A stretch of DNA of 64,000 bases, taken from the NCBI RefSeq assembly GCF_000426665.1, contig NZ_AUFU01000011.1:1-64000 (forward strand), given 5' to 3'. This stretch comes from Centipeda artemidis DSM 19719 (GTDB lineage: Bacteria > Bacillota > Negativicutes > Selenomonadales > Selenomonadaceae). Positions 7,989 to 39,964 of the stretch are shown piece by piece; positions within the stretch are counted from its first letter, which is position 1, and each line of letters begins with the position of its first letter. Below the pieces are notes generated by a model. That model was not told the DNA's origin. It did no database searches and saw only the letters and a list, made by a program, of their open reading frames with translations. Both the position numbers and the translations under genes were made by a program.

Positions 7989-9002
7989 ATGACCGACACA
8001 CAAGCAGCACAGGATTCCCGCCGCAAGATCATCCTCAGCGGCATTCAGCCGACCGGCACATTCACCCTCGGGAACTATCTCGGCGCGGTGAAGAACTGGC
8101 GGCATCTGCAGGAGTCCTATGACTGCTATTATTTTGTCGCCGATCTCCACGCGCTGACCGTCTACAACGAACCGGAGAAACGCCGCCGGCAGAGCCGCGA
8201 GGCGTTCGCCCTCCTGCTCGCGTGCGGTCTCGATCCGAAGGAAAGTCTCGTCTTTATCCAGAGCCACGTCCCCGCGCACGCGCAGATGGGATGGATGCTC
8301 TCGTGTCTCAGCCCGTTCGGCGACCTGACGCGCATGACGCAGTTCAAGGACAAATCCGCGAAGCACCCCGAGGACATCAACGCGGGACTCTTCACCTATC
8401 CCGCGCTCATGGCGGGCGACATCCTGCTCTACCGAGCGGATTACGTCCCCGTCGGCGCGGATCAAAAGCAGCACCTCGAGTTCACGCGCGACGTCGCGGA
8501 GCGGTTCAACCGCGTCTACGGCGAGGTGTTCCGCCTGCCCGAGGGCTATTATCCGAAGGAGGGCGCGCGCGTCAAGAGCCTGCAGGAGCCAACGGCGAAG
8601 ATGAGCAAATCCGACACGAACGCAAAGGCGACGATCTACATCCTCGACGACGAAAAAACGATTTTGAAAAAATTCCGATCCGCCGTCACGGACAGCGAGT
8701 CGGAGGTCGCGTTCCGTGAAGGCAAAGACGGCGTCAACAACCTCATGACCATTTACGCCGCCGTCACAGGGAAAAATATGGACGAGATCACAGCGGAGTT
8801 CGCCGGGAAGGGGTACGGCGACTTCAAGACCGCCGTCGGCACGGTTGTCGCCAACGAGCTGCGCCCCATCCGGGAAAAATACGCAGAGCTCCTCGCAGAT
8901 AAAGAATATCTCGACGCCGCCATCCGCGAGGGCGCGGAGCGCGCCTCTGCGATCGCCGAGCGAACGCTCGCGAAGGCAAAGCGAAAGATGGGACTGGCAT
9001 AA
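7989..9002 (+). CDS. trpS: Tryptophanyl-tRNA synthetase
   Basis: 337 aa, normal for bacterial TrpRS. It charges tRNA-Trp with tryptophan in the cytoplasm. The class I signatures are present: the HIGH-equivalent in SGIQPTGTFTLGNYLGA near the N-terminus and KMSKS in AKMSKSDTN. GADQKQHLEFTRDVAERFN is also diagnostic. It follows the acyltransferase by 47 bp with RBS AAGAAAGG, so the two are probably co-transcribed. No terminator is obvious; P-family palindromes follow directly. Confidence 0.97.
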   Translation: MTDTQAAQDSRRKIILSGIQPTGTFTLGNYLGAVKNWRHLQESYDCYYFVADLHALTVYNEPEKRRRQSREAFALLLACGLDPKESLVFIQSHVPAHAQMGWMLSCLSPFGDLTRMTQFKDKSAKHPEDINAGLFTYPALMAGDILLYRADYVPVGADQKQHLEFTRDVAERFNRVYGEVFRLPEGYYPKEGARVKSLQEPTAKMSKSDTNAKATIYILDDEKTILKKFRSAVTDSESEVAFREGKDGVNNLMTIYAAVTGKNMDEITAEFAGKGYGDFKTAVGTVVANELRPIREKYAELLADKEYLDAAIREGAERASAIAERTLAKAKRKMGLA

Positions 9003-9498: not shown

Positions 9499-10218
9499 AT
9501 GAACAAAATCCATCAAATAAAACGCGCCCTCATCCTTGCCGCAGGGCGCGGCACACGGCTCGCGCCGCTCACGGACGACCGTCCAAAGCCGATGGTCGAG
9601 GTCTGCGGACGTCCGATCATCACGACCATCCTTGACGCGCTTAAGGCGGCGAGGATTTCGTCGATTACCATTGTACGAGGGTATCGCGGCGCGGCGTTCG
9701 ACAAGCTCACAGACCAATACGAAGGGATTTCATTTCTAGACAATCCCGACTGGGAGACGTCAAACAACATCTCCTCTGTCACACTGGCGGGGGCACAGGG
9801 ACTGCTTGAGGACACCTACGTCGTCGAGGGGGATCTGTACCTCGCAAATCCTGCCGTCATAACGCCCACACAGGAGCGCTCGAACTACATCGCGTTCCCC
9901 GTGGAGGAGACGGACGACTGGCGGTTTGCCGTCGATGCGCAGGGACGCATCACGGAGATCGGCGTCGGCGGGCGGGACTGCCATCAGATGCTCGGACTCT
10001 CGTACTGGACCGCGGAGGACGGCGCACGTCTCGCCCGCTGCGCGGCGACGCTCTACAGGGAGGAGCGTTACCGCGGGCTCTACTGGGACGAGATCGCGCT
10101 CAAATACTATGCGGAGGACTTTCACATCTACGTCCGCCCGTGCACGCGCGCGGACGTGTGGGAGATCGACACCGCAGAGGAGCTCAGGGATTTGGAAAGG
10201 GACATGAATTGCCAATGA
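9499..10218 (+). CDS. pntC: Phosphonoalkane (2-AEP) cytidylyltransferase, LicC/PntC-like
   Basis: 239 aa nucleotidyltransferase. The signature ALILAAGRGTRLAPLTDDRPKPMVEVCGRPII is at residues 10-41; VVEGDLYL (about 105-112) supplies the metal-binding Asp. It resembles LicC-type CTP:phosphocholine cytidylyltransferases. Because the next gene is PEP mutase, a role as CTP:2-aminoethylphosphonate cytidylyltransferase (PntC), activating AEP as CMP-AEP for attachment to a glycan or lipid, is the best inference. RBS AAAGGAG. Its stop overlaps the next start (ATGA), so the two are translationally coupled. CTP:phosphocholine use is possible but no choline genes are nearby. Confidence 0.8.
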   Translation: MNKIHQIKRALILAAGRGTRLAPLTDDRPKPMVEVCGRPIITTILDALKAARISSITIVRGYRGAAFDKLTDQYEGISFLDNPDWETSNNISSVTLAGAQGLLEDTYVVEGDLYLANPAVITPTQERSNYIAFPVEETDDWRFAVDAQGRITEIGVGGRDCHQMLGLSYWTAEDGARLARCAATLYREERYRGLYWDEIALKYYAEDFHIYVRPCTRADVWEIDTAEELRDLERDMNCQ

Positions 10219-11510
10219 AAACCGTATATACATGCTTTTGCACAGACATCATCCACGACGGACACCGGAACATCCTGCGCGAGGCGGCAAAACTCGGCCG
10301 CGTCGTCGTCGGCGTGCTCTCCGATCCCGAGATGCTGCGCTACAACAGATTCCCCACGCGCACGCTTGCCGAGCGCATGGAGATGCTGCGCGCAGAGGAT
10401 CTCGTCGACGAAGTGATCGTGCAGGAGCATATTTTTTATGACGAAATCCTCGAAAAACTCCGCCCCGACTACGTCATCCACGGGCGCAACTGGGCGCAGG
10501 GACCCGAGTCCGCGCTGCGCAGCAACGTGCTCGCGTGTCTACAGCGGCTCGGCGGGCAGCTCGTCGAGCCGCCCTACACCTACAGCGACGAGGTCACTGA
10601 GATCGACCGCCGGATGCGCGAGCACCTCGCCATGCCCGAGCGGCGCCGCAGCCGTCTGCGCCGCCTGCTCGACATCATCCCCATCGTCAAGACCATCGAG
10701 GTGCACAACGGTCTCACGGGACTTATCGCGGAAAAGACGGTCGTTGAAAATGACGGCGGACTCGATCAGTTCGACGCCATGTGGATCTCGAGCCTGTGCG
10801 ACTCGACGGCGCGCGGCAAACCCGACATCGAGCTCGTCGATTTCTCCGACCGCATCCAGACCATCAACGAGGTCATGGACGTCACCACGAAGCCCGTCAT
10901 CCTCGACATGGACACGGGCGGCACGGCGGAGCATTTCGCCTACAACGTCCGCACGCTCGAGCGCATCGGCGTCTCCGCCGTCATCGTCGAGGACAAGACG
11001 GGGGCAAAACGCAACTCCCTCTTTGGCACGGAGGTCGCGCAGACGCAGGACACGATCGAGAATTTTTCCGAGAAGATCGCCGCGGGGAAAAAGGCGCTGC
11101 GCACCGACGAATTTATGATCATCGCGCGCATCGAAAGCCTGATCCTCGAAAAGGGGCAGGAGGATGCCCTCAGGCGCGCCGACGCCTATGTCGCGGCAGG
11201 CGCGGACGGCATCATGATCCACTCGCGCGCAAAGACACCGGGCGAAGTGCTCGCGTTCTGCGACGCGTTCCACGCATCGCACCCGGACATTCCCATCGTC
11301 GCCGTCCCCTCGTCCTACAACACCATCACCGAGGCGGAGCTGGCGGCGCACGGCGTGCGCATCGTCATCTACGCGAACCAGCTCACGCGCAGCGCGTTTC
11401 CCGCCATGGAGGCGACCGCGCGCTCCATCCTCGTCCATCACCGCGCGCATGAGGCGGATCAGAACCTCATGCCCATCAAGGACATCATCCGTCTCATTGA
11501 AATTATGTGA
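10215..11510 (+). CDS. pepM: Cytidylyltransferase / phosphoenolpyruvate mutase fusion
   Basis: 431 aa, two domains. Residues 1-135 form a cytidylyltransferase-like Rossmann domain with HDGH at 14-17 (the HxGH motif). Residues about 150-431 are PEP mutase: the family signature EDK-x5-NS appears as EDKTGAKRNS (259-268), with DMDTGG upstream. PEP mutase rearranges PEP to phosphonopyruvate, the committed C-P bond forming step. The fusion order is that of Fom1, the bifunctional enzyme of fosfomycin synthesis. With the separate LicC-like gene just upstream, this locus encodes two cytidylyltransferase domains. The ATG at 10215 is inside the upstream stop. Confidence 0.93.
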   Translation: MKTVYTCFCTDIIHDGHRNILREAAKLGRVVVGVLSDPEMLRYNRFPTRTLAERMEMLRAEDLVDEVIVQEHIFYDEILEKLRPDYVIHGRNWAQGPESALRSNVLACLQRLGGQLVEPPYTYSDEVTEIDRRMREHLAMPERRRSRLRRLLDIIPIVKTIEVHNGLTGLIAEKTVVENDGGLDQFDAMWISSLCDSTARGKPDIELVDFSDRIQTINEVMDVTTKPVILDMDTGGTAEHFAYNVRTLERIGVSAVIVEDKTGAKRNSLFGTEVAQTQDTIENFSEKIAAGKKALRTDEFMIIARIESLILEKGQEDALRRADAYVAAGADGIMIHSRAKTPGEVLAFCDAFHASHPDIPIVAVPSSYNTITEAELAAHGVRIVIYANQLTRSAFPAMEATARSILVHHRAHEADQNLMPIKDIIRLIEIM

Positions 11511-11518
11511 GGTGCCGC

Positions 11519-12226
11519 ATGAAAAATCAATGGCGCGCCGTATGGAACCGGCGCACCTCCTCGAACGACCGACTGACAGGGCGCTGGCAGGACGTTCTGC
11601 TCGAGCTCAAACGCGCAAACGGCTACGACGTCATGGAGGGCGGTCTGCCGCTCGAGACCTTCATCGGTCAAGATAAACAAATGCGGGAGCTCCTGCACCT
11701 TAGCCCCGGGAAAAGCGTCTTTGAGGTCGGGTGCGGCGCGGGCGCAAATCTCTACCTCATGCAGCGGGACAGTATTATGGTTGGTGGAATGGACTATTCG
11801 CCCCCCCTCGTGGACACCGCACGTACGGTGCTCCCGGATGCGCTCGAGCTGTCCTGCGGCGAGGCGGACAAGCTGTCGACAGAGCGGACATATGACGCCG
11901 TATTTTCCGCCGGCGTCTTTTCCTATTTCACAGGCACGGACTATGCCCGGCGCGTCCTCACCCGAATGCTCGAAAAATCACGCGGCGCGCTCGGACTCCT
12001 CGAGGTGCATGACATCGAAAAGGAGGACGCCTATCACGCATTCCGCCGCGCCTCTATCCCGGACTATGACGAACGTTATAAGGGGCTCGATAAGCTCTTT
12101 TATCCCCGCGCGTTCTTCGAGGACTTTGCGCGGAAGCACGATCTCACCGTCACGTTCCCGACCGTCGATATGCCGGGCTACTGGAACACTCCGTTCATCT
12201 TCAACTGCTTTATGTATCGGAAGTGA
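11519..12226 (+). CDS. Class I SAM-dependent methyltransferase
   Basis: 235 aa. Motif I is VFEVGCGAGANLYLMQ at about 63-78, with a following acidic strand VGGMDYSPPLVDTAR and YDAVFSAGVFSYF as the post-I/motif II region. The substrate is not evident. Its place between PEP mutase and the AEP transaminase suggests methylation of a phosphonate intermediate or of the final glycan, which is inference. The start is ATG 11519 with RBS GAGGTG (11509-11514) overlapping the end of pepM; an in-frame GTG at 11507 is less likely. Confidence 0.8.
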   Translation: MKNQWRAVWNRRTSSNDRLTGRWQDVLLELKRANGYDVMEGGLPLETFIGQDKQMRELLHLSPGKSVFEVGCGAGANLYLMQRDSIMVGGMDYSPPLVDTARTVLPDALELSCGEADKLSTERTYDAVFSAGVFSYFTGTDYARRVLTRMLEKSRGALGLLEVHDIEKEDAYHAFRRASIPDYDERYKGLDKLFYPRAFFEDFARKHDLTVTFPTVDMPGYWNTPFIFNCFMYRK

Positions 12227-12229
12227 CTT

Positions 12230-13336
12230 ATGAACATCAAACGAAACATCCTGCTCAATCCGGGTCCCGCGACCACGACCGACACGGTAAAGGCGGCGCA
12301 GCTCGTCCCCGACATCTGCCCGCGTGAGCGGGAATTCGGCGATCTGATGCGCACGTTCGGGGGCGACCTCCTGCGCATCGTGCATGTGACGCCCGAAGAA
12401 TGGGCGACCGTCCTCTTTTGCGGGTCGGGCACGATCGCCATGGACGCCTGCGTCTCCTCGCTCGTTCCCGCGGACGGCAAGCTCCTCATCGTGAACAACG
12501 GCGTATACTCCGCCCGCGCCGCGGAGATGGCGCGCGCCTACGGCGTACTGCACATCGACCTCACCTTCCCGATCGACGGACTGCCCGATCTCGCGGTGAT
12601 AGAGGACACGCTGAAAAAGCATCCCGAGATCACCGCCGTCTACACGACGCATCAGGAGACCGGCACGGGGATTCTCAATCCCGTGCGAGAGATCGGCGCG
12701 CTCGCCCACGCGCACGGCGCGATCTGCATCGCCGACACCATATCGACATTCGCCATGATCCCCATCGATGCGGAGGAGATAAACGTCGACGTGTGCATGT
12801 CGTCCGCGCAAAAGGGCATCCAAGGCATGACGGGGCTGTCCTTCGTCCTCGCGCGCAAATCCGTGCTCGACGCGGCGGTGCACTATCCCGTGCGGTCCTA
12901 CTATACGAACCTCATCATGCAGTACGAGGGATTTGAACGGACGGGCGAGATGCGCTTCACCCCGCCCGTACAGGTTGTCTATGCGGCAAAGCGCGCGCTC
13001 GCGGAGTATTTCGCCGAGGGCGAAACCAAGAAGTGGGCGCGCCACACGCGCGTGATTGACGCCATTCATGAGGGACTCGCGTCGCTCGGACTAGAAGAGG
13101 CGATCCCCCGCGAGATACAATCGGGACTCGTCGTCGCCGTGCGCTACCCGGACGATCCGCATTTTGACTTTGCGCGCGTGCATGATTACTGCTATGAGCG
13201 CGGATTCACCATCTACCCCGGCAAGATGCAAACGGCAAAGACGTTCCGCCTCTGCGCACTCGGAGCGATCGATGCGCCAGATATTGGGGCGTTTTTCCGT
13301 GTATTTGAAGACGTGATGCGGGATTTTCGCGCATAG
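12230..13336 (+). CDS. phnW: 2-aminoethylphosphonate transaminase
   Basis: 368 aa class V PLP aminotransferase. ILLNPGPATTTDTV at the N-terminus, D169 in CIADTISTF and the Schiff-base lysine K195 in SSAQKGIQG fit PhnW-type enzymes. In a biosynthetic cluster it would run from phosphonoacetaldehyde to 2-aminoethylphosphonate. It starts 3 bp after the methyltransferase. The last eight codons, encoding VMRDFRA and the TAG stop, lie inside an R-family repeat (13313-13436), so the repeat has supplied or replaced the natural C-terminus. Confidence 0.88.
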   Translation: MNIKRNILLNPGPATTTDTVKAAQLVPDICPREREFGDLMRTFGGDLLRIVHVTPEEWATVLFCGSGTIAMDACVSSLVPADGKLLIVNNGVYSARAAEMARAYGVLHIDLTFPIDGLPDLAVIEDTLKKHPEITAVYTTHQETGTGILNPVREIGALAHAHGAICIADTISTFAMIPIDAEEINVDVCMSSAQKGIQGMTGLSFVLARKSVLDAAVHYPVRSYYTNLIMQYEGFERTGEMRFTPPVQVVYAAKRALAEYFAEGETKKWARHTRVIDAIHEGLASLGLEEAIPREIQSGLVVAVRYPDDPHFDFARVHDYCYERGFTIYPGKMQTAKTFRLCALGAIDAPDIGAFFRVFEDVMRDFRA

Positions 13337-13436
13337 CTGTGTCACTGCGAAAAATTCTGCGGTCGACGTAGGTTTCATCTACGCCTTCCCTTGAATTTTT
13401 CTTGTTCCTTGCTCTGCATCGAAACTTCCGCATCAC
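13313..13436 (-). repeat. 124-bp structured repeat, family R copy 3
   Basis: Complete copy in the opposite orientation. Outer arms are CCGCATCAC (13428-13436) and GTGATGCGG (13313-13321). Compared with copy 2, the changed base pair is compensated on both arms. The inner helix is GAAAAATTC/GAATTTTTC. Its right-hand arm overlaps the 3' end and stop codon of the transaminase gene. Confidence 0.9.
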
Positions 13437-13454
13437 TTACTGTACGGTTTTATA

Positions 13455-13500
13455 CGCGGGATCTTCGCGCATAGCTGTTTCCCTTCATCGCGGGAAACAG
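13455..13500 (-). repeat. Truncated R-family fragment plus hairpin
   Basis: CGCGGGATCTTCGCGCATAGCTGT repeats the end of copy 3, then the sequence departs into CTGTTTCCC ... GGGAAACAG, a 9-bp hairpin at about 13476-13500. The rest of the spacer to 13573 is the leader of the next gene. Confidence 0.55.
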
Positions 13501-13573
13501 ATACGATTCACGCGCGCATATCGATAGAAGCCGTATGAGAGACGCCCGCATCACGCTAAGAAAGGACACGCCC

Positions 13574-15676
13574 ATGCAGGACGACTTCACCACATTTTGG
13601 AACAACAACGCCCGTGCGCGTGCCCTCTTTGACGATCTTCTCGCACGCTGTGAACGCTCCGCCTACGACAACGATTATCTCGCCGTGCTCGATGATTACG
13701 AAAAGGAATCGCCGGATCACCCGCATCTCTACATCTTTGCCGCGCGCTACATGCTCGCACACGGCGACGCCGTGGCTGCCGCCGACTACAGTGAACGCGC
13801 TTTCCTCCTGCGCCCCTCGAATCACGCCGTGTGGGACGTACTCGCGCGCGCATATACCGCTCTTGGACGCTATGACGATGCCCTCGTTATGCAGGGCTAC
13901 GCCGAAAATCTCTACCGCGTCCCCATCTCGCTGAACATTCCGCCCGCCGCACTGACGCCCGCCGCGCTCGATCGGCTCTCCGTCGCGCTCGGCGTCGCGA
14001 GCTACGCGCCCTTTGCCATCTGCCGTATGAGCTACAGTCCTGCGCGCGGTCTATCGGGGCAGGACGGGCTGTTCGCGCGGGAGTTTTTGCCCGTCTCGCC
14101 GCACATCTCTCCCTCGTACTATGTCGGCGTCTATGCCGAGCAGGAACCGCGCATGAGCAAATCATGGCTGATCGATACCGTGCGGCGCACGCCCGGCGCG
14201 GCGGCACATGCGGGCGGCGACTTCACGTTCGACATCATGCGCGGCACGCCCGCGCGCGGCAAAACGGAGATCGACCCGCAGGGCGCGGAAATCGTTCTGC
14301 CCGTCATCGGCACGGCGGACGATCAAAAGATCCGCTTCGAGACGCGCACGCTCGACAATACGACATGGCTGAACCCGGGCGCGCCGAATTTCTTCCGTCT
14401 CTCCGCGCGCACCGCGATTTCCTCCGACCGCGACTACATCGTCGGGACGCCCGTCCGGATCGGTCACGATCCGTCGCGCCGGCGGCTCGTGCTGAACATC
14501 CTCGTAGACGCGCTCGCGTGGTCGATCGTGCGTGAGCGGTTCAGAGAGGAAATGCCGAACGCGCATGATTTTTTCGGCAAAGGGCTGATCTTTGACAATC
14601 ATTTTTCGGTGGCAGAGTACACCTATCCGTCGCTCGCGACCATCGAGACGGGCATGTATCCGCATCACAGCGGTCTCGTCAGCGGCAGTGTCGCGATCGA
14701 GCTGCGCCCCGACTGCATCACGCTCTCGGAGCGGATGAAGGAACGCGGTTATGCGACGTCGAATCTCTTGGGAGAAGGCGTCGGCATCTACAACGGCGTG
14801 ACGCGCGGCTATGACCGCCTGATCGTGACGCCCTACCGTCTACATGCCCATGACGGTGTGGAGCGCGCGATCCGCCTGCTTGAGGGGATGGGCGATGCGG
14901 ATCACTTCATTTTCCTGCATACGACGAATATACATGCGGAGGCGTCCGAGTTTTTTCAGTTCTCCTCATCGGTGCAGCAGCGTCTCTCCCTCGTGGATCG
15001 GCTCTCTGCGCCCGACGAGCGCGTGCCGAGTCCCTACCTCGTGCCGAATGCGCTCAGTAAGGCGGCATTTTGGCAGGGCGTGCGCGATATGGATCGCGCG
15101 CTCGGCACGCTGTTTTCCTACCTCGAACGGCACTATGCTCCCGACGACTACATCGTAAATCTCTACTCCGACCACGGCGTCTCGATCTTCAACGAATGCG
15201 AGGACATTGCAAATCCCGCGATGACGCACGCGGCGTGGATGATGCGCGGTGCCGGCGTGCCGGAGGGCGTGCGCGCGGATGAGCTGACGAGCGCGGTTGA
15301 CATCTACCGGGCGCTCGGCGCGCTCTGCGATTTCCCCGTCGACGCGTATGTGGACGGGGTTTTGCCAAAAATATTTGGCGGCACGGGGCGCGAGATTGCG
15401 TTCAGCAATTCGCTCTTCCCGACGAAAGCGTATTATCTCGCGGCGCGCAGTGAGACGCATACCTTGCGGCTCATGGTTGCAGATGCGGTCGAGCAGGACG
15501 GCACGGTCGACCTCTCGCGCGCAGAGGTAAAAATCTATCCGCGCGATCACGAGGGCGAAGCGGCATATGCCGTTGACAGCGCGGAGCTGCGGGCATTCTT
15601 TTACCCGCGCGTGAGAGAATTTTTGCGCGGAATAGATAATAATGGTGAGATTTTCCCCTCCCCACAGTCTACATAA
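13574..15676 (+). CDS. TPR / alkaline-phosphatase-superfamily protein A1
   Basis: About 700 aa from ATG 13574 (RBS AGAAAGGA). Residues about 45-115 look like TPR repeats. A middle linker follows, then a sulfatase/nucleotide-pyrophosphatase-like fold: metal Asp D312 (LNILVDALAW), candidate nucleophile T350 (AEYTYPSLATIETGMYPHHSG), D533-H534 (YSDHG) and H552 (THAAWMM). The motif that reads MDxH in the three paralogues is TNIH here (N452), so one metal ligand is replaced. There is no signal peptide or membrane segment, so it is cytoplasmic. Context suggests handling of phosphonate or phospho-sugar esters; the substrate is unknown. This copy may be catalytically weak or altered. Confidence 0.75.
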   Translation: MQDDFTTFWNNNARARALFDDLLARCERSAYDNDYLAVLDDYEKESPDHPHLYIFAARYMLAHGDAVAAADYSERAFLLRPSNHAVWDVLARAYTALGRYDDALVMQGYAENLYRVPISLNIPPAALTPAALDRLSVALGVASYAPFAICRMSYSPARGLSGQDGLFAREFLPVSPHISPSYYVGVYAEQEPRMSKSWLIDTVRRTPGAAAHAGGDFTFDIMRGTPARGKTEIDPQGAEIVLPVIGTADDQKIRFETRTLDNTTWLNPGAPNFFRLSARTAISSDRDYIVGTPVRIGHDPSRRRLVLNILVDALAWSIVRERFREEMPNAHDFFGKGLIFDNHFSVAEYTYPSLATIETGMYPHHSGLVSGSVAIELRPDCITLSERMKERGYATSNLLGEGVGIYNGVTRGYDRLIVTPYRLHAHDGVERAIRLLEGMGDADHFIFLHTTNIHAEASEFFQFSSSVQQRLSLVDRLSAPDERVPSPYLVPNALSKAAFWQGVRDMDRALGTLFSYLERHYAPDDYIVNLYSDHGVSIFNECEDIANPAMTHAAWMMRGAGVPEGVRADELTSAVDIYRALGALCDFPVDAYVDGVLPKIFGGTGREIAFSNSLFPTKAYYLAARSETHTLRLMVADAVEQDGTVDLSRAEVKIYPRDHEGEAAYAVDSAELRAFFYPRVREFLRGIDNNGEIFPSPQST

Positions 15677-15691
15677 AAAGGGAGCATTGCT

Positions 15692-17809
15692 ATGCAGGAC
15701 GGATTCACCATATTTTGGCAAAACAACAACCGCGCGCGGGCCCTCTTCGACGATCTCGTCGCGCGCATACATCGGAATGCCTACGACGACGACTACCTCG
15801 CCGTGCTGGACGCGTACCAAGCGGAATCACCGGACAGTGCGCATTTCTACATCCTCGCGGCGCACTACCTGACGGCACACGGCGCATATGAGTCGGCGCT
15901 CCCGCTCGCCGAGCGCGCCTATCGCCTGCGCCCGGTCGGCTATGCGGTGTGGAATCTCCTTACCGAGATCTACGAGCATCTAGGCCGTCCGCTTGACGCG
16001 CTCACGATGCGCGGCTATAGTTACGGTATTTACAAGACGCCCGAACCGCGCATCGATGATCTGCCGCCGGAGCTCCTCCATGAGGGACTGAATCGGCTCT
16101 CCGTCGCGATGAGCGAGGGCAAGGTCGCCCCCGTCCTCACCTGCCGCGCCGTCATAGAGGACGGGCAGCTCTCCTTCCGAGACGATCTCTTCGTCGGCGA
16201 GGAACTACCGCTCACGATGCCCGAAGGCAGCGCGCGGTTTTGGGTCGGCTGCTATGGCGAGAACCGCTTTCTCTCGGAAAAGGGCTTCATGCTCGAAGAA
16301 CTCCGCCGGAGCGCGCGGTTCAAAAACTGCGGACATCACGATTTTGTCCTCGATCTGCAAAAGGCGCGCGAGGTGCGCGGCACGACAGAGATCGATGTGC
16401 CGGAGGGACGCGAAGCGCTCATTGCGATCGCCGGCACGGAGCTGTCACAGGAATTATCGTTTCAAACGGAAACCGTCGACGATCATACCTATCTCGGCAA
16501 GTGGGCGTTCAGCTATTTCCGGCTCAGCGAAAAGACGACGCTGCATGTGGACGAATCCGCCCCCTATGTCCTCGGCACGCCCATCCTTCTCGGACACAGC
16601 CCGCGCCGCAAAAAACTCGTGCTGAACATTCTCGTGGACGGTCTCTCGTGGCCGGTCATGCGCACGCGGTTCACGGAATATATGCCGCGCATCGCGGAGT
16701 TTTTCTCGCGCGGCGTCATCTTTGACGATCATTTTTCCACCTCGGAGTTCACCTACCCCGCGCTCGCCGCCATCGAGACGGGGCGTTATCCGACGCATAC
16801 GCAGGTGTTCAGCGAAGAGGACAGTCACGAGCTGCCGCTCGATATGACGACGCTCTCGGAGTGCATGAAGGATCTCGGCTATTACTGCGCCGCCCCGATG
16901 GCGAGCGGCTACTCCATGTACTGCGGGGCGATGCGCGGCTACGACCGCATCGTCGCGACCTCGTGGGATCTGCCTGCCTTTGACGGCGCGGAGCGCACGA
17001 TCCGCCATCTCGAAGCCTTTGGCGAGACAGATCAATTCCTCTTCCTGCATGTGATGGATGTGCACCCTTACGCTGCAAAAGGGTTCAAATTCGCCACATC
17101 GGTGGAGACGCGCCTGCCTCTGGCGCGGCGTCTCCTCGGCGCACAGGGTACGGAGGCGAGCGTGCGCCTGCCGAATTTTGAAATCTACCGCGCGCAGTTC
17201 CTGGAGGGAGCGCGATATGTCGACCGCAGTGTCGGCGTCCTGCTCGACTACATCCGGACGCACTACGACGAGGACGAATACATCGTGAATCTCTACTCGG
17301 ATCACGGCGTCTCGATCTTTAGTCCAAACGCGGACGGCGCCGTTGACATCATGGGGCCCTACTCCACGGGCGCGTCATGGATGATGCGCGGTGCGGGCGT
17401 CCCTGCGGCGGGCGTCGCCCATGAGCTGACGAGCAGTGTGGACATATACGCTGCCCTCGGGCATCTGTGCGGCTTTCCCGTCGCCCCCGATGTCGACAGC
17501 AATCTCCCCGCGGTGTTCGGCGGACGGGAACGGGAGGCGGTCTACAGCATCTCCCGCTATCCCGGGCAGACGCTCAAGGTCGCCGTGCGGTCAAAGACGC
17601 ATACGCTGCGTCTTGAGACAGACGAAGTCGTAGCAAAAGACGGGACGGTCGATCTCGGCGGGGCATATCCCGACATCTTCCCGCGCGCCCATGAGGCGGA
17701 GCCGGGGTACGCCGTTGACAGCGCGGAGCTGAGGGCGTTCTTTTATCCGCGGGCAAGAACCTTCTTACGAGAGGTTGCAAACAACGGCGAGTATTTCCCA
17801 CATCCGTAA
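15692..17809 (+). CDS. TPR / alkaline-phosphatase-superfamily protein B1
   Basis: 705 aa paralogue of the preceding gene, 15 bp after it. It has the same order: TPR-like N-terminus (MQDGFTIFWQNNNRARALFDDL), linker, then the phosphatase-fold domain with LNILVDGLSW, SEFTYPALAAIETGRYP (Thr nucleophile), LHVMDVHPY, YSDHG. The A-type THAAWMM becomes STGASWMMRG, so the last metal-binding His is missing while MDVH is intact. It is most similar to the fourth paralogue (20534-22660), sharing the C-terminal PGQT-KLAVRSKTH and a NGE-FP ending. No signal peptide. Confidence 0.75.
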   Translation: MQDGFTIFWQNNNRARALFDDLVARIHRNAYDDDYLAVLDAYQAESPDSAHFYILAAHYLTAHGAYESALPLAERAYRLRPVGYAVWNLLTEIYEHLGRPLDALTMRGYSYGIYKTPEPRIDDLPPELLHEGLNRLSVAMSEGKVAPVLTCRAVIEDGQLSFRDDLFVGEELPLTMPEGSARFWVGCYGENRFLSEKGFMLEELRRSARFKNCGHHDFVLDLQKAREVRGTTEIDVPEGREALIAIAGTELSQELSFQTETVDDHTYLGKWAFSYFRLSEKTTLHVDESAPYVLGTPILLGHSPRRKKLVLNILVDGLSWPVMRTRFTEYMPRIAEFFSRGVIFDDHFSTSEFTYPALAAIETGRYPTHTQVFSEEDSHELPLDMTTLSECMKDLGYYCAAPMASGYSMYCGAMRGYDRIVATSWDLPAFDGAERTIRHLEAFGETDQFLFLHVMDVHPYAAKGFKFATSVETRLPLARRLLGAQGTEASVRLPNFEIYRAQFLEGARYVDRSVGVLLDYIRTHYDEDEYIVNLYSDHGVSIFSPNADGAVDIMGPYSTGASWMMRGAGVPAAGVAHELTSSVDIYAALGHLCGFPVAPDVDSNLPAVFGGREREAVYSISRYPGQTLKVAVRSKTHTLRLETDEVVAKDGTVDLGGAYPDIFPRAHEAEPGYAVDSAELRAFFYPRARTFLREVANNGEYFPHP

Positions 17810-17864
17810 CCATGGTGTAAAGACAAGACCTGCACCCTGCAACCGATAGAAAGGCAGTCTTCCT

Positions 17865-19967
17865 ATGCAGAACGATCTCGCAACATTTTGGCGGCGCAGC
17901 GAGCGCGCGCACGATCTGTTTTACGATCTGCGCGACCGATCGGAGCGCGGCGCCTACGATGAGGAATATCTCGCGCAGCTCGCCGCGTACCGTGCGGCGG
18001 GTGGAAACGAGGTGCACGCGGATATCTTTGCCGCGCTCTATCTGCTCGCCGCGGGAGATGCCGAAAATGCCGCCGTCTGCGGGGATCGCGCGTTTCGCCG
18101 TCGGTCGGTGAGCCATGTCGTTTGGGGTATCCTCGCGTGTGCCTATGAGGGGCTGGGACGGTATACGGACGCGCTCGTGATGCAGGCGTACGCGGAGAAT
18201 CTGTTCGGCACGCCGATGCGCCTGACGCTCCCGCCCGCCGCCCTGACGGACGCCCTGCTCGATCGCCTCACTGTCGCGATGGGCAAGGCGAACTATGCGC
18301 CGTTCACGCTCCGGCGCATGTCTTACGACGCAGAAAAGGGGCTGACGGATCGCGCCTCCTGCTTTGCGGGCGAATTTCTGCCGATCGCGCCGCACATCAC
18401 GCCGCCCTACTACGTCGGAGTCTACACGGAGCAGGAGCTGCGCGGGAATAAGGCGTGGCTGCTCAGTCTCATCCGTGATGATGAAAATATCAGCGTCTTT
18501 GGCGCAGGCGATTTTAACTTCGACATCATGCGCGCCGAGCGCGCCCCCGGCAGGGCGGTCATTTCCCCTGCGGAAGGGGAGCAGACAGTTGTCCCGATCC
18601 TCGGGATGCATCCGGCGCAGCCTGTGCATGTCAAGGCGGCAGATGTAGATGCAGAGACGTACCTCTCGCCTGCGACGCCGAGCTTTTTCCGGCTCGACAA
18701 GGAGACGACGTTCTCCTCCGAACACGCCTTCGTCGTCGGCACGCCGATCCGCATCGGCCACGCGCCGCACCGCCGCCGTCTCGTGCTGAATATCTTCGTC
18801 GATGCGCTCCCATGGGCGGTACTGCGCGACCGATTTGAAGAACTCATGCCAAATACCTCCCGTTTTTTCAGCGAGGGGGTGATTTTCGACCGGCATTATT
18901 CGACGGCGGAGTATACATACCCGTCCTTTGCTTCCATCGAGACAGGCATGTATGCGCACCACAGTCAGATTTTCAATGAAAAGATCGCCGTGGAGCTCCC
19001 GCCCGACTACATCACGCTCTCGGAGCGTATGAAGTCGCTCGGCTACGCTACGGCGTCGCTCATGACCGACGGCAACGGCATCTATAACGGGACGATGCGC
19101 GGCTACGACCGGCTCATCATGACGCCTTACCGCATGTTTGCCTACGAGGCGGCAGAGCGCACTGTCCGTCATCTGGACGGTCTGCGTGACGCCGATCACT
19201 TCATCCTGCTCCACCTCATGGATGCGCACCCATGGTCGGAAGCAAGCATGCAACCGTCGACACCGACGCAGACGGGACTTTCGCTCAGGGAACGTCTCTC
19301 CGGGACAAAAAGCAATACGCCGAGCCCCTATCTCGGCGCGACGCCGCTGAACAAGGAGGCGTGCCTCCAAGGAATCCGCAGTACGGATCGCGCGCTCGGG
19401 ATGCTCTTTTCCTACCTAGCGGAGCATTACACGCCCGACGAGTACCTCGTAACGCTCTACTCCGATCACGGTGCATCGGTATTCCGTGACAATGAGACGG
19501 TGGTCGAGCCGCATATGACGCATGCGGCATGGATGATGCGCGGCGTAGGGGTTCCGTGCAGCGTTCATACGGACGAGGTAGTGAGCGGGGTGGACATTTA
19601 CCCGACGCTCGGCGCGCTCTGCGGCTTCCCCGTGGATGAATATGTGGACGGGGTACTTCCGAAAATATTCGGCGGCACGGGTCGCGAGATCGCATTCAGC
19701 AATTCGCTCTTCCCGACGAAGGCATATTATCTCGCGGCGCGTGCGCCGGAGTATTCGATGCGCGTGACGGTAAACAGCGCGGTGGAGGTCGACGGCACGG
19801 CGGATATTGCAGAGGCGCAGGTGCAGTTCTACCCGAGCGCACACGAGGGCGATGAGGCATATGCTATTGACAGCGAAGAACTGCGCGCATTCTTTTATCC
19901 GCGGGTGCGGGAGTTTATGAGGGGGATAGATAATAATGGCGAAATCTTCCCCTTCCCGAGGGCGTGA
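17865..19967 (+). CDS. TPR / alkaline-phosphatase-superfamily protein A2
   Basis: 700 aa, closest to A1; the stretch GGTGREIAFSNSLFPTKAYY is identical in both and their DNA there is nearly identical. This copy keeps every candidate ligand: Asp in LNIFVDALPW, Thr in AEYTYPSFASIETGMY, MDAH in LHLMDAHPW, YSDHG and THAAWMM. It is therefore the most likely active A-type enzyme. RBS AGAAAGG. Its TGA stop (19965-19967) lies inside the outer arm GTGACACGG of R-family copy 4. No signal peptide or membrane helix is seen. Confidence 0.75.
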   Translation: MQNDLATFWRRSERAHDLFYDLRDRSERGAYDEEYLAQLAAYRAAGGNEVHADIFAALYLLAAGDAENAAVCGDRAFRRRSVSHVVWGILACAYEGLGRYTDALVMQAYAENLFGTPMRLTLPPAALTDALLDRLTVAMGKANYAPFTLRRMSYDAEKGLTDRASCFAGEFLPIAPHITPPYYVGVYTEQELRGNKAWLLSLIRDDENISVFGAGDFNFDIMRAERAPGRAVISPAEGEQTVVPILGMHPAQPVHVKAADVDAETYLSPATPSFFRLDKETTFSSEHAFVVGTPIRIGHAPHRRRLVLNIFVDALPWAVLRDRFEELMPNTSRFFSEGVIFDRHYSTAEYTYPSFASIETGMYAHHSQIFNEKIAVELPPDYITLSERMKSLGYATASLMTDGNGIYNGTMRGYDRLIMTPYRMFAYEAAERTVRHLDGLRDADHFILLHLMDAHPWSEASMQPSTPTQTGLSLRERLSGTKSNTPSPYLGATPLNKEACLQGIRSTDRALGMLFSYLAEHYTPDEYLVTLYSDHGASVFRDNETVVEPHMTHAAWMMRGVGVPCSVHTDEVVSGVDIYPTLGALCGFPVDEYVDGVLPKIFGGTGREIAFSNSLFPTKAYYLAARAPEYSMRVTVNSAVEVDGTADIAEAQVQFYPSAHEGDEAYAIDSEELRAFFYPRVREFMRGIDNNGEIFPFPRA

Positions 19968-20087
19968 CACGGGATTTGGGCGCATAGCTGTGTCATATCG
20001 AAAAACACTGCGCTTGACGTAGCTCTTAACTATGCCGGCGCTTGTGTTTTTCTCATTCCTTGCTCTGCATCCAAACTTCCGTGTCAC
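19964..20087 (-). repeat. 124-bp structured repeat, family R copy 4
   Basis: Outer arms GTGACACGG (19964-19972) and CCGTGTCAC (20079-20087) are again exactly complementary although both differ from copy 2. The inner helix is GAAAAACAC/GTGTTTTTC. The first arm contains the stop codon of the upstream gene. A decayed fragment (GACGGGATTTTCGCGCAT) follows at about 20105-20122. Confidence 0.9.
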
Positions 20088-20169
20088 TCAGGTTACGGGC
20101 TAAGACGGGATTTTCGCGCATCGCCGGGTCATTTTCATGCGGCGGTGCGCTACGCCGTCGGAACGTCTC

Positions 20170-20385
20170 GCATCAGGTGTATCGCCGTGTAGTGAGCTGC
20201 GGCGAACGGGTATCTTATCGAAGCTGCGGAGCATTTACCCGTAGGGCGGCGCGGCTCGTTGCCCGTTGATGAGGGGATGTGTTAGAGCGCCGCTTTGCAG
20301 TCCGAAGGACTGTGCGGCGGAACGAACGAGATAATGATACATACCTGCCGCGTCGTTTGCTAAGCAGCGAGAAAGATACCCTGAG
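20170..20385 (+). repeat. Long structured repeat, family L copy 2
   Basis: Matches copy 1 at most positions over about 215 bp, including CATCAGGTGTATCGCCG, GAGCATTTACCCG and GGGGATGTGTTAGA. Its hairpin around 20287-20320 has CGCCGC/GCGGCG outer and GCAGTCC/GGACTGT inner pairs. It separates the A1-B1-A2 block from B2. Confidence 0.7.
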
Positions 20386-20427
20386 ACGCACACAAATCCT
20401 ACGTTTCCCCAAACACTTTCATATCGC

Positions 20428-20500
20428 GCGGCGTTTGCCGCAGCGATTTTTAAGCCCCGCTTTTTCGAGAGGGTAAATGCCAAGCGGCTCCGATAACTTT
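20428..20500 (-). repeat. Family K repeat copy 1
   Basis: GCGGCGTTTGCCGCAGCGAT, then TTTTAAGCCCCGCTTTTT and GTAAATGCCAAGCGGC. On the minus strand this corresponds to the copy at 35052-35120. GCGGC...GCCGC arms could pair. Confidence 0.65.
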
Positions 20501-20533
20501 TCCCTCCGCGTCACGCCTAGAAAGGACACGCCC

Positions 20534-22660
20534 ATGCAAGACGATTTCAATATTTTTTGGCAGAACAACGACTGCGCGCTTGCGCTGTTCGACGATCTTG
20601 TCGCACGCATGGAGCGCGGCGCCTATGACGACGATTACCTCGCGCTCCTGGGCGCCTATCAGGAGGAACGCCCGGACACGGCGCATTTTTACATCTTTGC
20701 GGCGCGGTACCTCGCGGGACACGGCAGATACGACGCCACGCTCCCGCTCGCCGAGCGCGCCTATCGCCTGCGCCCGGTGAACTACGAGGTGTGGAAGCTC
20801 CTCGCGGAAATTTACAGGCACGTCGGCAGATACCTCGACGCCATGACCATGCAGGGCTACGGATATAGCATATACGAGGAGATCAAGCCGCAGATCGAAC
20901 TCCCGTCGCCGGAACTGCTCCCCGAGGCGCTCGATCGGCTCGCCGTCGCGCTCGGTCCCGGCAACTATGCTCCGCTCGCGCCGCACCGCCCGTTCTATCA
21001 TGACGGCGCATTGACGTTCCGCCGCGATGTGTTCGTCGGCGAGATGCTCCCGCTCACGATGCCCGAGGGGAGCGACCGGTTCTATGTCGGATGCTACACG
21101 GAAAATTGTTTTCTCTCGGAAAAGGGCGAGATACTCGCGCAGTATCGTCACGACAATCTCTTCGCTCAATGTTGGCATCATGACTTCGTATTCGATTTCC
21201 AAAAAGCCCGCATGGCACAGGGCAGCGTTCATATCGAGGTGCCGGAGGGGCGCGAAATCATTCTGCCCGTCGCCGGCGCGCACACATGGCACGAATGCCG
21301 CATCGAGACCGCCGCGGATGCGGAGGACGTTCTCCTCGGCAAATGGGCGTTCAGCAATTACCGCCTCAGCGAGAGCGCGACGCTCACCGCAAGCGAGCCC
21401 TTTGCCGTCGGGACGCCCATCCTCCTCGGGCACGATCCGCGCCGCAAAAAACTCGTGTTGAACATCCTCGTCGACGGGCTGTCATGGGCGGCGGCACGGA
21501 TGCGCTTCCCTCACTGTATGCCGCGCATCGCGGAGTTCTTCTCACGCGGCGTCATCTTTGATCAAAATTTCTCCACGTCCGAGCACACGCACCCCGCGCT
21601 CCCCGCGATCGAGACGGGGCGCTATCCGCAGCGCATCCATATCTTCAACGAAAAGGACAGTCACGAACTGCCGCTCGATATACCGACGCTCTCGGAGCAG
21701 ATGAAGGAGCTCGGCTACTACTGCGCAGCCCCGATGGCGAGCGGATTCGGCGTCTACAACGGCGTGATGCGCGGCTACGACCGCATCGTCTCGACCTCGT
21801 GGCGTCTGCCCTCCTACGAGGGCGTCGACCGCACGATCCGGCAGATCGAGGCGTTCGACGAGACGGATCAATTTCTCCTGCTGCATGTGATGGACGTCCA
21901 CCCGTGGGACGGTAAGGATTTTAAGTTCGATCCCACGGTCGAGGCGCATCTGCCGCTCAAAGACCGCAGTGTCGCGCCGGGCAAGGAGCGCACCGCGAGC
22001 GTCCGCCTGCCGCCGACGAAGGTCTACCAAGAGGATTTTTGGGCGAATCTGAGGAATGCGGATCGCTCGATCGGCGCGCTGCTCGCGTACATCGCCGACC
22101 GCTACGACGAGGACGAATATATCGTAAATCTCTACAGCGACCACGGGCTTCCCTGTTTTAGCGCGGAAGATCTCAGTACCTGTCTTGATCTCGCGCGCGA
22201 GATGCAGACGAGCGCGACGTGGATGATGCGCGGGGCGGGCGTGCCGCAGGGCATTGTCGCGGATGAAATGACGAGCATCGTCGATATTTACCCCACCCTC
22301 GGACATCTCTGCGGATTCCCCATGCCGGCGGACATCAACGGGAACCTGCCCGCGGTCTTCGGCGGAAAGGAGCGCGACGTCGTTTACAGTGCGCTGACAT
22401 TCCCCGGGCAGACGTTCAAGCTCGCCGTGCGGTCAAAGACGCACGCGTTTCGTCTCGAGACGCAGGACACGGCGGACGAGGACGGCACGGTGGATTTTCG
22501 CATCGCGCGTACGGGCATCTACCCGCGCGGGCATGAATGGGAGGACGGGTACGAGGCGGACAGCGCGGAGCTGCGCGCGTTCTTCTACCCGCGTGCGCGG
22601 GCGTTTGTGGAGGGATTTGCGAGTAATGGAGAGCTTTTTCCCTCAATGAAGAAGACGTGA
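20534..22660 (+). CDS. TPR / alkaline-phosphatase-superfamily protein B2
   Basis: About 708 aa from ATG 20534. The leader from TCACGC through AGAAAGGACACGCCC to the start codon is almost the same as that of A1. B-type: LNILVDGLSW, SEHTHPALPAIETGRYP (Thr retained), LHVMDVHPW, YSDHG, and TSATWMMRG in place of THAAWMM. The A1-B1 and A2-B2 similarities show that an A-B pair was duplicated, after which repeats invaded the A2-B2 gap. Its TGA stop (22658-22660) is inside an R-family arm GTGACGCGG. Function as for the other three: cytoplasmic phosphatase-fold enzyme of unknown substrate. Confidence 0.75.
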   Translation: MQDDFNIFWQNNDCALALFDDLVARMERGAYDDDYLALLGAYQEERPDTAHFYIFAARYLAGHGRYDATLPLAERAYRLRPVNYEVWKLLAEIYRHVGRYLDAMTMQGYGYSIYEEIKPQIELPSPELLPEALDRLAVALGPGNYAPLAPHRPFYHDGALTFRRDVFVGEMLPLTMPEGSDRFYVGCYTENCFLSEKGEILAQYRHDNLFAQCWHHDFVFDFQKARMAQGSVHIEVPEGREIILPVAGAHTWHECRIETAADAEDVLLGKWAFSNYRLSESATLTASEPFAVGTPILLGHDPRRKKLVLNILVDGLSWAAARMRFPHCMPRIAEFFSRGVIFDQNFSTSEHTHPALPAIETGRYPQRIHIFNEKDSHELPLDIPTLSEQMKELGYYCAAPMASGFGVYNGVMRGYDRIVSTSWRLPSYEGVDRTIRQIEAFDETDQFLLLHVMDVHPWDGKDFKFDPTVEAHLPLKDRSVAPGKERTASVRLPPTKVYQEDFWANLRNADRSIGALLAYIADRYDEDEYIVNLYSDHGLPCFSAEDLSTCLDLAREMQTSATWMMRGAGVPQGIVADEMTSIVDIYPTLGHLCGFPMPADINGNLPAVFGGKERDVVYSALTFPGQTFKLAVRSKTHAFRLETQDTADEDGTVDFRIARTGIYPRGHEWEDGYEADSAELRAFFYPRARAFVEGFASNGELFPSMKKT

Positions 22661-22692
22661 CGCGGGATTTTCGCGCATAGCGGTGTCACCGT
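22657..22692 (-). repeat. Truncated R-family repeat, copy 5
   Basis: GTGACGCGGGATTTTCGCGC and following bases repeat one end of the family and then diverge after GGTGTCACC. The arm contains the stop codon of the upstream gene, as in copy 4. Confidence 0.7.
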
Positions 22693-22725
22693 CGTTGCGC
22701 CGTTATCCTTCGTACCGCGCGTCTT

Positions 22726-22785
22726 TTTCCGCAGCAATTAAGCCCCTCTGTTTTCGCATGGCAAATGCCAAGCGGCTCCGGCAAC
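22726..22785 (-). repeat. Family K repeat copy 2
   Basis: GCAGCAATTAAGCCCCTCTG and GGCAAATGCCAAGCGGCTCC match the copy at 20428-20500. Confidence 0.6.
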
Positions 22786-22827
22786 TTCCCCCCCTGCATC
22801 ACTCTTCAAGAGAAAGGGACATCAACC

Positions 22828-23940
22828 ATGGACGTCAAAGATTTTGTCAACATCCTCGGGGCAGATTTCTTCGCCGGCGTGCCGGACTCAAAGCTCCGGC
22901 CGCTTGTCGATTACCTCGTAGAGAGCTACGGCAGCAATAATGCATCCCACGTGATCGCTGCGAACGAGGGAAACGCTGCGGCGCTCGCGGCGGGCTATCA
23001 TCTCGCAACGGGAAAAACGCCTGTCGTTTATCTCCAGAACAGCGGGCTGGGGAACATCGTCAATCCCCTGCTCTCGCTCCTCGACCGCGCGGTCTACGGC
23101 ATCCCGTGCATCTTCGTCATCGGCTGGCGCGGTGAGCCTGGACTGCACGACGAGCCGCAGCATCTCCTGCAGGGGCGGCTCACCGAGCCGCTCCTCGATA
23201 CGATGGGTGTAACGACACGCATCCTCACGCGGGAGACGACGCCCGCAGAGCTCGCGCGCATGATGGAGGAGGTACGCCCTCATCTCGCGGCGGGCGGACA
23301 GGCAGCATTCCTTGTCCGCGAAGGCGCGCTCACGTATCCAAAGCAGAAATATGAAAACCTCTTTCCCATGCGCCGTGAAGATGCCGTCGCCGAAATCCTC
23401 AATGCTGCAGAAGACGCCGTTATCGTCGCGACAACGGGCAAGACGGGACGCGAGCTCTTCGAGCTGCGTGAGGCGCGCGGCGAGGGTCATGCCCGTGACT
23501 TCCTCACCGTCGGCTCGATGGGACATGCAAGCGCCATTGCCCTCGGCCTCGCCCTTCACCGCCCGCAGCGGCGCGTCATCTGTATCGACGGCGACGGCGC
23601 GGCGCTGATGCATATGGGGGCAATGGCGACCATTGGCGCCATCGCGCCTGAGAATCTTGTCCACATCCTCCTCAACAATGAGGCACACGAATCCGTCGGC
23701 GGCGCGCCGACAGTCGCAGACTCAATGAACTTCCTCCACATCGCCGAAGCCGTCGGCTACCGGCGCGTCCGCAGTGCCGATGATCCCGGCTCGCTCCGCC
23801 GTGCGCTGCAGGATATTCAGGAACACAGGAAACTCACCTTCCTTGAGGTGCGCATCGCCATCGGATCACGCAGCGATCTCGGACGCCCTACAACGACGCC
23901 CGCAGAAAATAAAGCGGCACTAATGCAGACACTGCACTGA
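22828..23940 (+). CDS. ppd: Phosphonopyruvate decarboxylase
   Basis: 370 aa from ATG 22828 (RBS AGAAAGGGA). ThDP enzyme: the N-terminal PYR half holds ASHVIAANEGNAAALAAGYH with the cofactor-activating Glu; the C-terminal half has the ThDP motif GDGAALMHMGAMATIG ... LNNEAHESVGG. The length and the paired SVGGAPT motif fit phosphonopyruvate decarboxylase, which converts phosphonopyruvate to phosphonoacetaldehyde and so pulls the unfavourable PEP mutase reaction. It closes the phosphonate island about 11 kb after pepM. The sulfopyruvate decarboxylase family is related, but pepM in the same cluster settles the call. Confidence 0.92.
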   Translation: MDVKDFVNILGADFFAGVPDSKLRPLVDYLVESYGSNNASHVIAANEGNAAALAAGYHLATGKTPVVYLQNSGLGNIVNPLLSLLDRAVYGIPCIFVIGWRGEPGLHDEPQHLLQGRLTEPLLDTMGVTTRILTRETTPAELARMMEEVRPHLAAGGQAAFLVREGALTYPKQKYENLFPMRREDAVAEILNAAEDAVIVATTGKTGRELFELREARGEGHARDFLTVGSMGHASAIALGLALHRPQRRVICIDGDGAALMHMGAMATIGAIAPENLVHILLNNEAHESVGGAPTVADSMNFLHIAEAVGYRRVRSADDPGSLRRALQDIQEHRKLTFLEVRIAIGSRSDLGRPTTTPAENKAALMQTLH

Positions 23941-23952
23941 TACCGTATATAC

Positions 23953-24000
23953 AATAACAGGGCGACAGCACTTTATTCGTGCTGTCGCCCTGTTATTTTT
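23953..24000 (+). terminator. Intrinsic terminator of the phosphonate island
   Basis: A perfect 19-bp stem: AATAACAGGGCGACAGCAC (23953-23971) with its complement at 23979-23997, loop TTTATTC, then a T run. Confidence 0.92.
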
Positions 24001-26596: not shown

Positions 26597-26703
26597 GTTT
26601 TTTCTTCCTCCCGAACAATCAATACTCTGTGAAAAAATGCACATGCGTTCTTGTTAATATTTCGTCTTTTCCTCCTCTCCGAACGTATCCCCGGCGAGCG
26701 ATA

Positions 26704-26733: not shown

Positions 26734-26807
26734 CATATGAATGGCACGACAATACAGCCGTATATGAATCTCCTCCCTGTCGCTCGCAGGTGGTAACGGT
26801 GACCTCT

Positions 26808-26958: not shown

Positions 26959-26988
26959 GTTTATGTGCTTTTGTGAATTTCAGGCGAC

Positions 26989-39857: not shown

Positions 39858-39964
39858 AGATCGGAGATCGATCGCGAGAAGTCGTAACGACATCACGTCA
39901 AATGCGATGTTGTTGCGGCTTTTTTATACTTTTGTTCACTCTGTTGAGAGGAAAAGGTGCCCTC

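Follow-up and report, generated by a model that had tools for sequence, protein, structure and literature searches.

A phosphonate biosynthesis island in Centipeda artemidis with a tandem array of alkaline-phosphatase-fold proteins, candidate cytoplasmic head-group transferases

The window analysed here, positions 1-64,000 of contig NZ_AUFU01000011.1 of Centipeda artemidis DSM 19719 (genome G000), contains at positions 9499-23940 a single island, with all genes on the plus strand. It encodes synthesis of 2-aminoethylphosphonate (AEP) from phosphoenolpyruvate (PEP), probable activation of AEP as a cytidine monophosphate (CMP) ester, and four tandem paralogues with an alkaline phosphatase fold (AlkPs A1 to A4). 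Our tentative reading, which we put somewhat short of an even chance, is that the AlkPs are cytoplasmic head-group transferases that would move AEP-type groups from CMP or cytidine diphosphate (CDP) donors onto protein-bound glycans. Synthesis of AEP and its cytidylyl activation are already known; what would be new is tailoring by a tandem array of AlkPs. Tailoring after formation of the carbon-phosphorus bond is called enigmatic by Rice et al. (2019, PMC6697681), and we found no report of this AlkP family, or of a tandem AlkP array in such a role, in openly licensed PubMed Central (PMC) text. As the island lies in a genome without a detected LicD phosphotransferase, the tandem AlkP family is the leading candidate for this step.

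The three enzymes of AEP synthesis named in the original prediction are all encoded in this one cluster, and each scores above its curated NCBIfam cut-off: PEP mutase (PepM, 10215-11510; TIGR02320, 385.8 bits against 319.55), phosphonopyruvate decarboxylase (Ppd, 22828-23940; TIGR03297, 465.1 against 312.5) and 2-aminoethylphosphonate transaminase (12230-13336; TIGR03301, 436.8 against 360.8). The PEP mutase is a Fom1-like fusion with an N-terminal cytidylyltransferase domain (PF01467), for which the best match in the Protein Data Bank (PDB) is the phosphoenolpyruvate phosphomutase entry 5x3d, which we take to be the Fom1 cytidylyltransferase domain. The fusion protein also contains HDGH, presumably the HxGH motif of cytidylyltransferases. 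In the mutase part, EDKTGAKRNS agrees with the motif EDKxxxxxNS given for PEP mutases in PMC6697681. The start of the fusion gene (10215) overlaps the stop of the first island gene (9499-10218), a PntC/LicC-like nucleotidyltransferase (NTP_transf_3, PF12804) with LicC as its best PDB match (1jyk, E 4.8e-26). This is probably a CTP:AEP cytidylyltransferase, its preference for AEP being suggested by gene context. The route from PEP to CMP-AEP drawn earlier is therefore supported with a contextual assignment of AEP specificity, and the single cytidylyltransferase of the original prediction becomes two because a PF01467 domain is fused to PEP mutase in addition to the PF12804 gene. A nucleotidyltransferase fused to PepM and an adjacent PF12804 gene are the arrangement of a Pnt cluster. 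Also present is a class I S-adenosylmethionine-dependent methyltransferase (11519-12226; PF13649/PF08241), which may N-methylate the AEP head group. The left neighbour of the island is a trpS-like gene (7989-9002, plus strand), read from sequence with no family test. An intrinsic-terminator-like stem of 19 pairs (23953-23997, plus strand), a consensus match and not functional evidence, lies 3' of the last island gene.

The four phosphatase-fold paralogues, A1 (13574-15676), A2 (15692-17809), A3 (17865-19967) and A4 (20534-22660), match the Sulfatase family PF00884 with E values of 2e-18 to 2e-21 (A1 3e-19, A3 2e-21, A4 2e-18). They are the only AlkP copies found in the genome, and the other paralogues are 43-62% identical to A2. 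A structure prediction had been proposed earlier; the resulting A2 model (predicted local distance difference test 93.3) places a helical TPR-like region at about residues 13-140, a beta domain at about 146-300 and an AlkP-fold domain at about 303-700, and all four paralogues are read with the same three parts. The TPR assignment stands in modified form: Pfam matches fall under the curated cut-offs, and the region is helical in the model and matches PDB TPR proteins by profile. In comparison with solved structures (VIA), the A2 model aligns mostly over residues 303-700, with Z scores of 24.6-29.8 among the matches listed (n = 50). Those listed include sulfatases, choline sulfatase, phosphonate monoester hydrolase (PMH) and YejM/PbgA; LtaS and EptA are not among these 50, which excludes nothing. 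For the beta domain modelled alone (about residues 142-308), Foldseek gave nothing at E ≤ 0.001 and the best VIA Z score was 5.0, which points to no clear relative. By profile search of the PDB, the best non-TPR match is PMH 4upk (E 4e-13), in an alignment that places D316 on an Asp, T354 on the Cys of CGPSR and DHG on DHG.

Conservation was followed in 101 AlkPs from the window and from fetched genome stretches L040-L098 (here, L-codes denote fetched stretches and G-codes genomes). Open reading frames of ≤600 or ≥830 amino acids, those with a best reference score ≤250 and those missed by a simple gene caller lie outside this set, hence also fragments, one 1205-amino-acid form and the G596 homologue. 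Residues D316, E352, T354, H458, D537 and H538 are invariant in 101/101. The position of the sulfatase Cys/Ser nucleophile is Thr in every one of them, within the motif T-[YH]-P-[AS]-[LF] in A1-A4, and the CxPxR motif of type I sulfatases and PMH, with its Cys/Ser nucleophile, is absent from A1-A4. Structural comparison, PF00884 and residue conservation thus agree on the fold and the Asp / nucleophile / Asp-His arrangement of the AlkP superfamily. We rejected a function as sulfatases on the basis of the universal Thr replacement, and a status as pseudo-enzymes because the active-site residues are kept throughout; from these residues, the paralogues look catalytically active. Thr nucleophiles are found in AlkP-fold transferases (LtaS, EptA) and phosphodiesterases, and sulfatases and PMH use a formylglycine nucleophile.

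An N-terminal hydrophobic segment or export signal was found in none of the 101 AlkPs, in which the top 19-residue hydropathy of this region is 1.01. The whole-protein maximum is 1.67, with 2/101 just over 1.6, the usual mark for membrane segments, against 2.53 for a membrane-protein control. These values support the cytoplasmic location claimed in the original prediction. By the same measure, the membrane anchor and extracytoplasmic catalytic domain of LtaS/EptA-type proteins were not found in the 101 sequences.

The island is conserved in the genus. Named relatives were found at 11 loci, all Selenomonas. PepM is encoded in 13/14 genus genomes (the exception is G030), and AlkPs occur within the PepM island in 13/13 of these. 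The gene order is trpS-like gene, pntC, cyt-pepM, methyltransferase gene, phnW, AlkP array and ppd; arrays complete within their stretch have the AlkPs between transaminase and decarboxylase, and wherever a genus locus extends far enough, its pntC is preceded by the trpS-like gene. Islands carry 3-7 AlkP copies, seven being present in G025 (L081), and the number of methyltransferases varies across the 13 genomes (none in one, one in seven, two in five). G036 has three full AlkP copies and three fragments (L091), and G032 has an extra copy past the trpS-like gene (L087). In G030, one AlkP adjoins the trpS-like gene, with no PEP mutase (L040, G030:C1:651001-671000); perhaps it is a relic of the island. 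Two repeats of leader-like DNA were also identified in the window: one of 65 nt (77%) at 20450-20514, before A4, and 22738-22802, before ppd, and one of 150 nt (76%) at 13307-13456, around the end of phnW, and 19958-20107, around the end of A3. The two repeats hint at modular duplication of the AlkP array. Sliding identity shows no clear tract of gene conversion among the four copies.

Beyond the genus, AlkP relatives were detected at E ≤ 1e-40 in 41 of the 380 genomes of the class-level set, all in the family of the window, and in 4/398 phylum genomes, one of them in another family. A tblastn search of PLSDB at E 1e-20 gave no plasmid-borne relatives. Within the family-level set of 189 genomes (the order-level set is identical), AlkP, at a presence threshold of E ≤ 1e-20, and PepM each occur in 42. 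Both are present in 30, AlkP only in 12, PepM only in 12 and neither in 135 (Fisher p 7e-16), and outside the genus the counts are 17, 11, 12 and 135 (p 3e-9); these p values ignore relatedness of the genomes, and in G002, counted as AlkP only, the match is confined to the TPR-like region. The two genes lie within about 10 kb of each other on one contig in 26 of the 30 genomes that have both (the exceptions are G123, G150, G173 and G183).

The absence of a LicD-like transferase, noted earlier for the cluster, holds for the whole G000 genome: LicD (PF04991) was not found at E ≤ 1e-6, and the same threshold left 12 of the 13 PepM-bearing genomes of the genus, including G000, without a match. A LicD-like phosphotransferase is an associated, not a strictly defining, feature of Pnt clusters. 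We identified one CDP-alcohol transferase match in G000, in a search that could have missed others such as PgsA; because it is next to a gene read as psd, it is probably the phosphatidylserine synthase PssA. Among fetched PepM stretches without AlkP, 4/14 carry LicD (L074, L092, L094 and L097). In five stretches with PepM (L045, L064, L066, L070 and L072), AlkP relatives are accompanied by an Fe-type alcohol dehydrogenase, and AEP transaminase is missing, which suggests hydroxyethylphosphonate (HEP) head groups. One such dehydrogenase was tested; it belongs to the Fe-type family and scores far below the threshold that the phosphonate-specific model sets.

AlkPs also occur outside phosphonate islands. 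The fetched stretches, which are part of all AlkP places found in family genomes, include 20 with AlkP and without PepM (L040-L044, L046-L059 and L071), and 9/20 encode an activating nucleotidyltransferase for a head group or CDP-sugar. Six of these have a LicC-like gene, mostly with LicA and at times with EamA or LicD (L042, L043, L044, L046, L047 and L052). In two, AlkP adjoins a nucleotidyltransferase-aminotransferase fusion and relatives of the window's methyltransferase (L053 and L058), and one has glucose-1-phosphate cytidylyltransferase and CDP-glucose dehydratase (L055). A gene in each of L051 and L054 was read as a nucleotidyltransferase from sequence, with no family test. In L117, from a genome of another family (G596), the AlkP homologue has as neighbours a LicC-like gene, NeuB-type genes and genes for choline kinase and a BCCT transporter. 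A tree of 55 of the 101 AlkPs, in which the genus is represented by the window, L085 and L087 alone, requires at least 15 changes of context label (25.9 in shuffles; as low in 0/200), a clustering that near-copies alone can produce, and at least 10 changes without the label 'none'. Labels were set per stretch, and L060, L062 and L068 are labelled AEP though they hold no transaminase. A phosphonate-only role was rejected, given the lic-type, CDP-glucose and nucleotidyltransferase-aminotransferase contexts and the at least 10 label changes. It seems that the family works with several head groups and has switched from one to another. A further stretch (L123, G030:C1:2550001-2570000) resembles a surface-glycan locus and lies about 22 kb from a flagellin gene; in it, LicD neighbours two genes with matches to the nucleotidyltransferase-aminotransferase fusion, here unfused.

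Loci from outside the genus hint at a possible acceptor. The original prediction had proposed a modified surface glycan as the product; what these loci favour is a glycan on protein, possibly flagellin, rather than surface polysaccharide. A flagellin-domain gene lies within 20 kb of an AlkP in at least 11/28 non-genus genomes (G007, G015, G140, G141, G148, G150, G156, G165, G177, G184 and G186), where a simple upper-bound estimate gives about 2.8 expected (p 5.5e-5) at a cut-off set post hoc, with the distances already known. G007, G148, G156 and G177 each have a single run (L118-L121 with L045 and L061-L063) of flagellar genes, flagellin (fliC), glycosyltransferases of GT2 and GT41 type, AlkPs and PepM genes; the flagellar names were read from sequence, and family tests covered two of the glycosyltransferases, both from L119. 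The AlkP of G015 (L046) immediately adjoins the flagellin gene. Mass spectrometry has found 2-AEP on a Clostridioides difficile flagellin glycan, its source being given as unknown in PMC8861647, and a survey cited there reports no PepM in that species. C. difficile type A flagellin carries GlcNAc-phospho-N-methylthreonine, for which PMC10714395 gives a CDP-threonine model, and PMC8931226 contains a proposal of phosphonylated surface glycoproteins in marine bacteria. Flagellin would be the leading acceptor for the AlkP family and is no more than a possible one for the window.

In the mechanism that we propose, AEP made by PEP mutase, decarboxylase and transaminase would probably be N-methylated, activated as its CMP ester and passed to the tandem cytoplasmic AlkP-fold enzymes, acting as phosphonyl transferases with CMP-AEP as donor. 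Thr354 would attack the phosphonate phosphorus of CMP-AEP, CMP would leave and a phosphonyl-enzyme would form, with metal held by Asp316, Asp537 and His538 in roles suggested by the alignment. The intermediate would then be resolved by a hydroxyl of an acceptor glycan for which the TPR-like domain and the variable beta domain serve as docking sites. For the family, this acceptor is most likely a protein-bound glycan, with flagellin as first candidate, and individual AlkP copies would have distinct preferences for acceptor or head group. Sequence supports the set of pathway genes, conservation of the active site, the absence of a detected LicD and the lack of an export signal; the direction (transfer as opposed to hydrolysis), the CMP-AEP donor, the acceptor and N-methylation are inferred.

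A broader version, which we hold to be rather unlikely in its full extent, would make the TPR-AlkPs a new class with a phosphonyl- or phosphoryl-Thr intermediate formed from CMP-AEP, CMP-HEP, CDP-choline or CDP-threonine-like donors. Such enzymes would place head groups on glycans of flagellin or other proteins before export, with tandem copies diversifying acceptor or head group, and Selenomonadaceae would have phosphonylated flagella. If our main reading is right, the AlkP superfamily would gain a cytoplasmic, nucleotide-donor branch (a new enzyme class, if transfer holds), and there would be a genetic route to phosphonate on bacterial flagellin, known from C. difficile mass spectrometry without a source. 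The island offers residues to mutate and a candidate donor for the tailoring step.

The main rival to transfer is hydrolysis, which we hold to be rather unlikely. The AlkPs would then work in the cytoplasm as mono- or diesterases of phosphonates, splitting esters (CMP-AEP, AEP-sugar or CDP-head-group) in turnover, proofreading or recycling, and an unrecognised enzyme would perform the transfer. The original prediction had offered a phosphonyl transferase or a phosphonate-ester hydrolase; with a Thr-type active site and PMH as best non-TPR match, either may stand, as enzymes of a family that is not tied to phosphonate. Several observations weigh against transfer, and those on structural relatives and on LicD favour hydrolysis. 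AlkP-fold enzymes are more often hydrolases, and we know of no member of the superfamily that uses a CMP or CDP donor. The nearest solved enzyme is PMH by profile, with other sulfatases ranking close behind, and choline sulfatase in a single-sequence PDB search with A2 (E 6e-5), in line with the hydrolases among the listed fold matches. LicD also accompanies AlkP, with PepM in L045, L065 and L067 and without it in L042, L044, L048 and L053, and is encoded somewhere in 12 of the 30 genomes with AlkP and PepM; AlkP need not, therefore, replace LicD, and a straightforward replacement is counted against. LicD is lacking too in 10/14 of the PepM stretches without AlkP (several on short contigs), so an island can do without both nearby and other transferases may exist. 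For the flagellin link, besides the post hoc distance, the count falls to at least 4/28 genomes at 10 kb (G007, G015, G156 and G177), and in the control of PepM genomes without AlkP flagellin is near in at least 1/12 (p 0.07, suggestive only). The genus island is not near flagellin, and the G000 flagellin loci (L100 and L101) are without AlkP; L101 has two glycosyltransferase-like genes, of which the one tested is GT2. What speaks for transfer over hydrolysis is that the genus genomes without LicD would require a separate, unrecognised transferase, that 3-7 copies seem more than clean-up would need, and that the invariant Thr is shared with the transferases LtaS and EptA.

A third explanation, which we judge improbable, is that the AlkPs act in an unrelated surface modification and share with PepM, lic and CDP-sugar genes merely a location in surface-glycan islands. 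The diversity of contexts and the label changes on the tree fit this, as do the 9/20 AlkP stretches without PepM in which no activating gene is in view (L040, L041 with rfbG only, L048, L049, L050, L056, L057, L059 and L071; L048, L049 and L071 are truncated by contig ends), which likewise tell against transfer. The close spacing of PepM and AlkP, their co-occurrence outside the genus and labels more clustered than in all 200 shuffles (subject to the effect of near-copies) argue the other way. Also improbable, in our view, is a lipid route, in which a CDP-alcohol transferase of the housekeeping kind, or some other enzyme, would bring AEP to a lipid or envelope polysaccharide; the AlkPs, in the manner of EptA and LtaS, would pass phosphoethanolamine or phosphonoethanolamine from lipid on to glycan. 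Head-group transferases that combine the AlkP fold with a Thr nucleophile are known, and the membrane AlkPs YejM/PbgA are among the closest folds. However, with no export signal and hydropathy well under the membrane control, outer-leaflet lipid donors would be out of reach of the AlkPs, and the sole CDP-alcohol transferase match found, in a search that may have missed others, is probably the phosphatidylserine synthase. Cytoplasmic transfer from a nucleotide donor remains our preferred, tentative reading of the array.

Elsewhere in the window, a cobalamin riboswitch (107 bits; 26796-26971, minus strand) is located about 150 bases upstream of a gene for an autotransporter beta-domain protein (24023-26644, minus strand); a B12-controlled autotransporter would be unusual. 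At 39902-41670 (plus strand), a macro-domain gene (PF01661) overlaps a gene that looks like a SirTM-type sirtuin and has no Pfam match at 0.001; from sequence, the two are a possible ADP-ribosylation pair. Two hexapeptide-acetyltransferase-like proteins, at 6886-7941 (plus strand) and 41628-42752 (minus strand), have C-terminal extensions that look alike; the first was tested by family.

Several known systems resemble parts of the proposed pathway. PMH (4upk, 2w8s) and choline sulfatase (7pth) share the fold and the Asp / nucleophile / Asp-His arrangement, whereas the window AlkPs have Thr for the Cys of CGPSR, TPR-like and beta domains, no export signal and head-group biosynthesis genes as neighbours. 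LtaS and EptA have a Thr nucleophile and perform head-group transfer, as proposed here for the AlkPs, but are membrane-anchored and use lipid donors, unlike the AlkPs, which have no clear transmembrane segment and lie beside genes for CMP/CDP activation. The lic phosphocholine operons are similar in that LicC-like genes and LicA, at times with EamA or LicD, are beside AlkP in several relatives; the window differs in making AEP instead of phosphocholine, in a genome where LicD was not found. With the Pnt clusters of oral anaerobes, as described in the main text of PMC6697681, the island shares a nucleotidyltransferase fused to PepM, a second one nearby, the AEP route and a surface-directed logic. 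The clusters presented there have LicD-like phosphotransferases or glycosyltransferases in place of the tandem AlkP array, and that main text uses neither the term 'alkaline phosphatase' nor the term 'sulfatase'. For cd0241-cd0244 of C. difficile, the transferase proposed in PMC10714395, CD0244, is TagF-like and not an AlkP, but the model given there is similar in its logic: a CTP-activated, N-methylated phospho-head group is transferred to flagellin GlcNAc.

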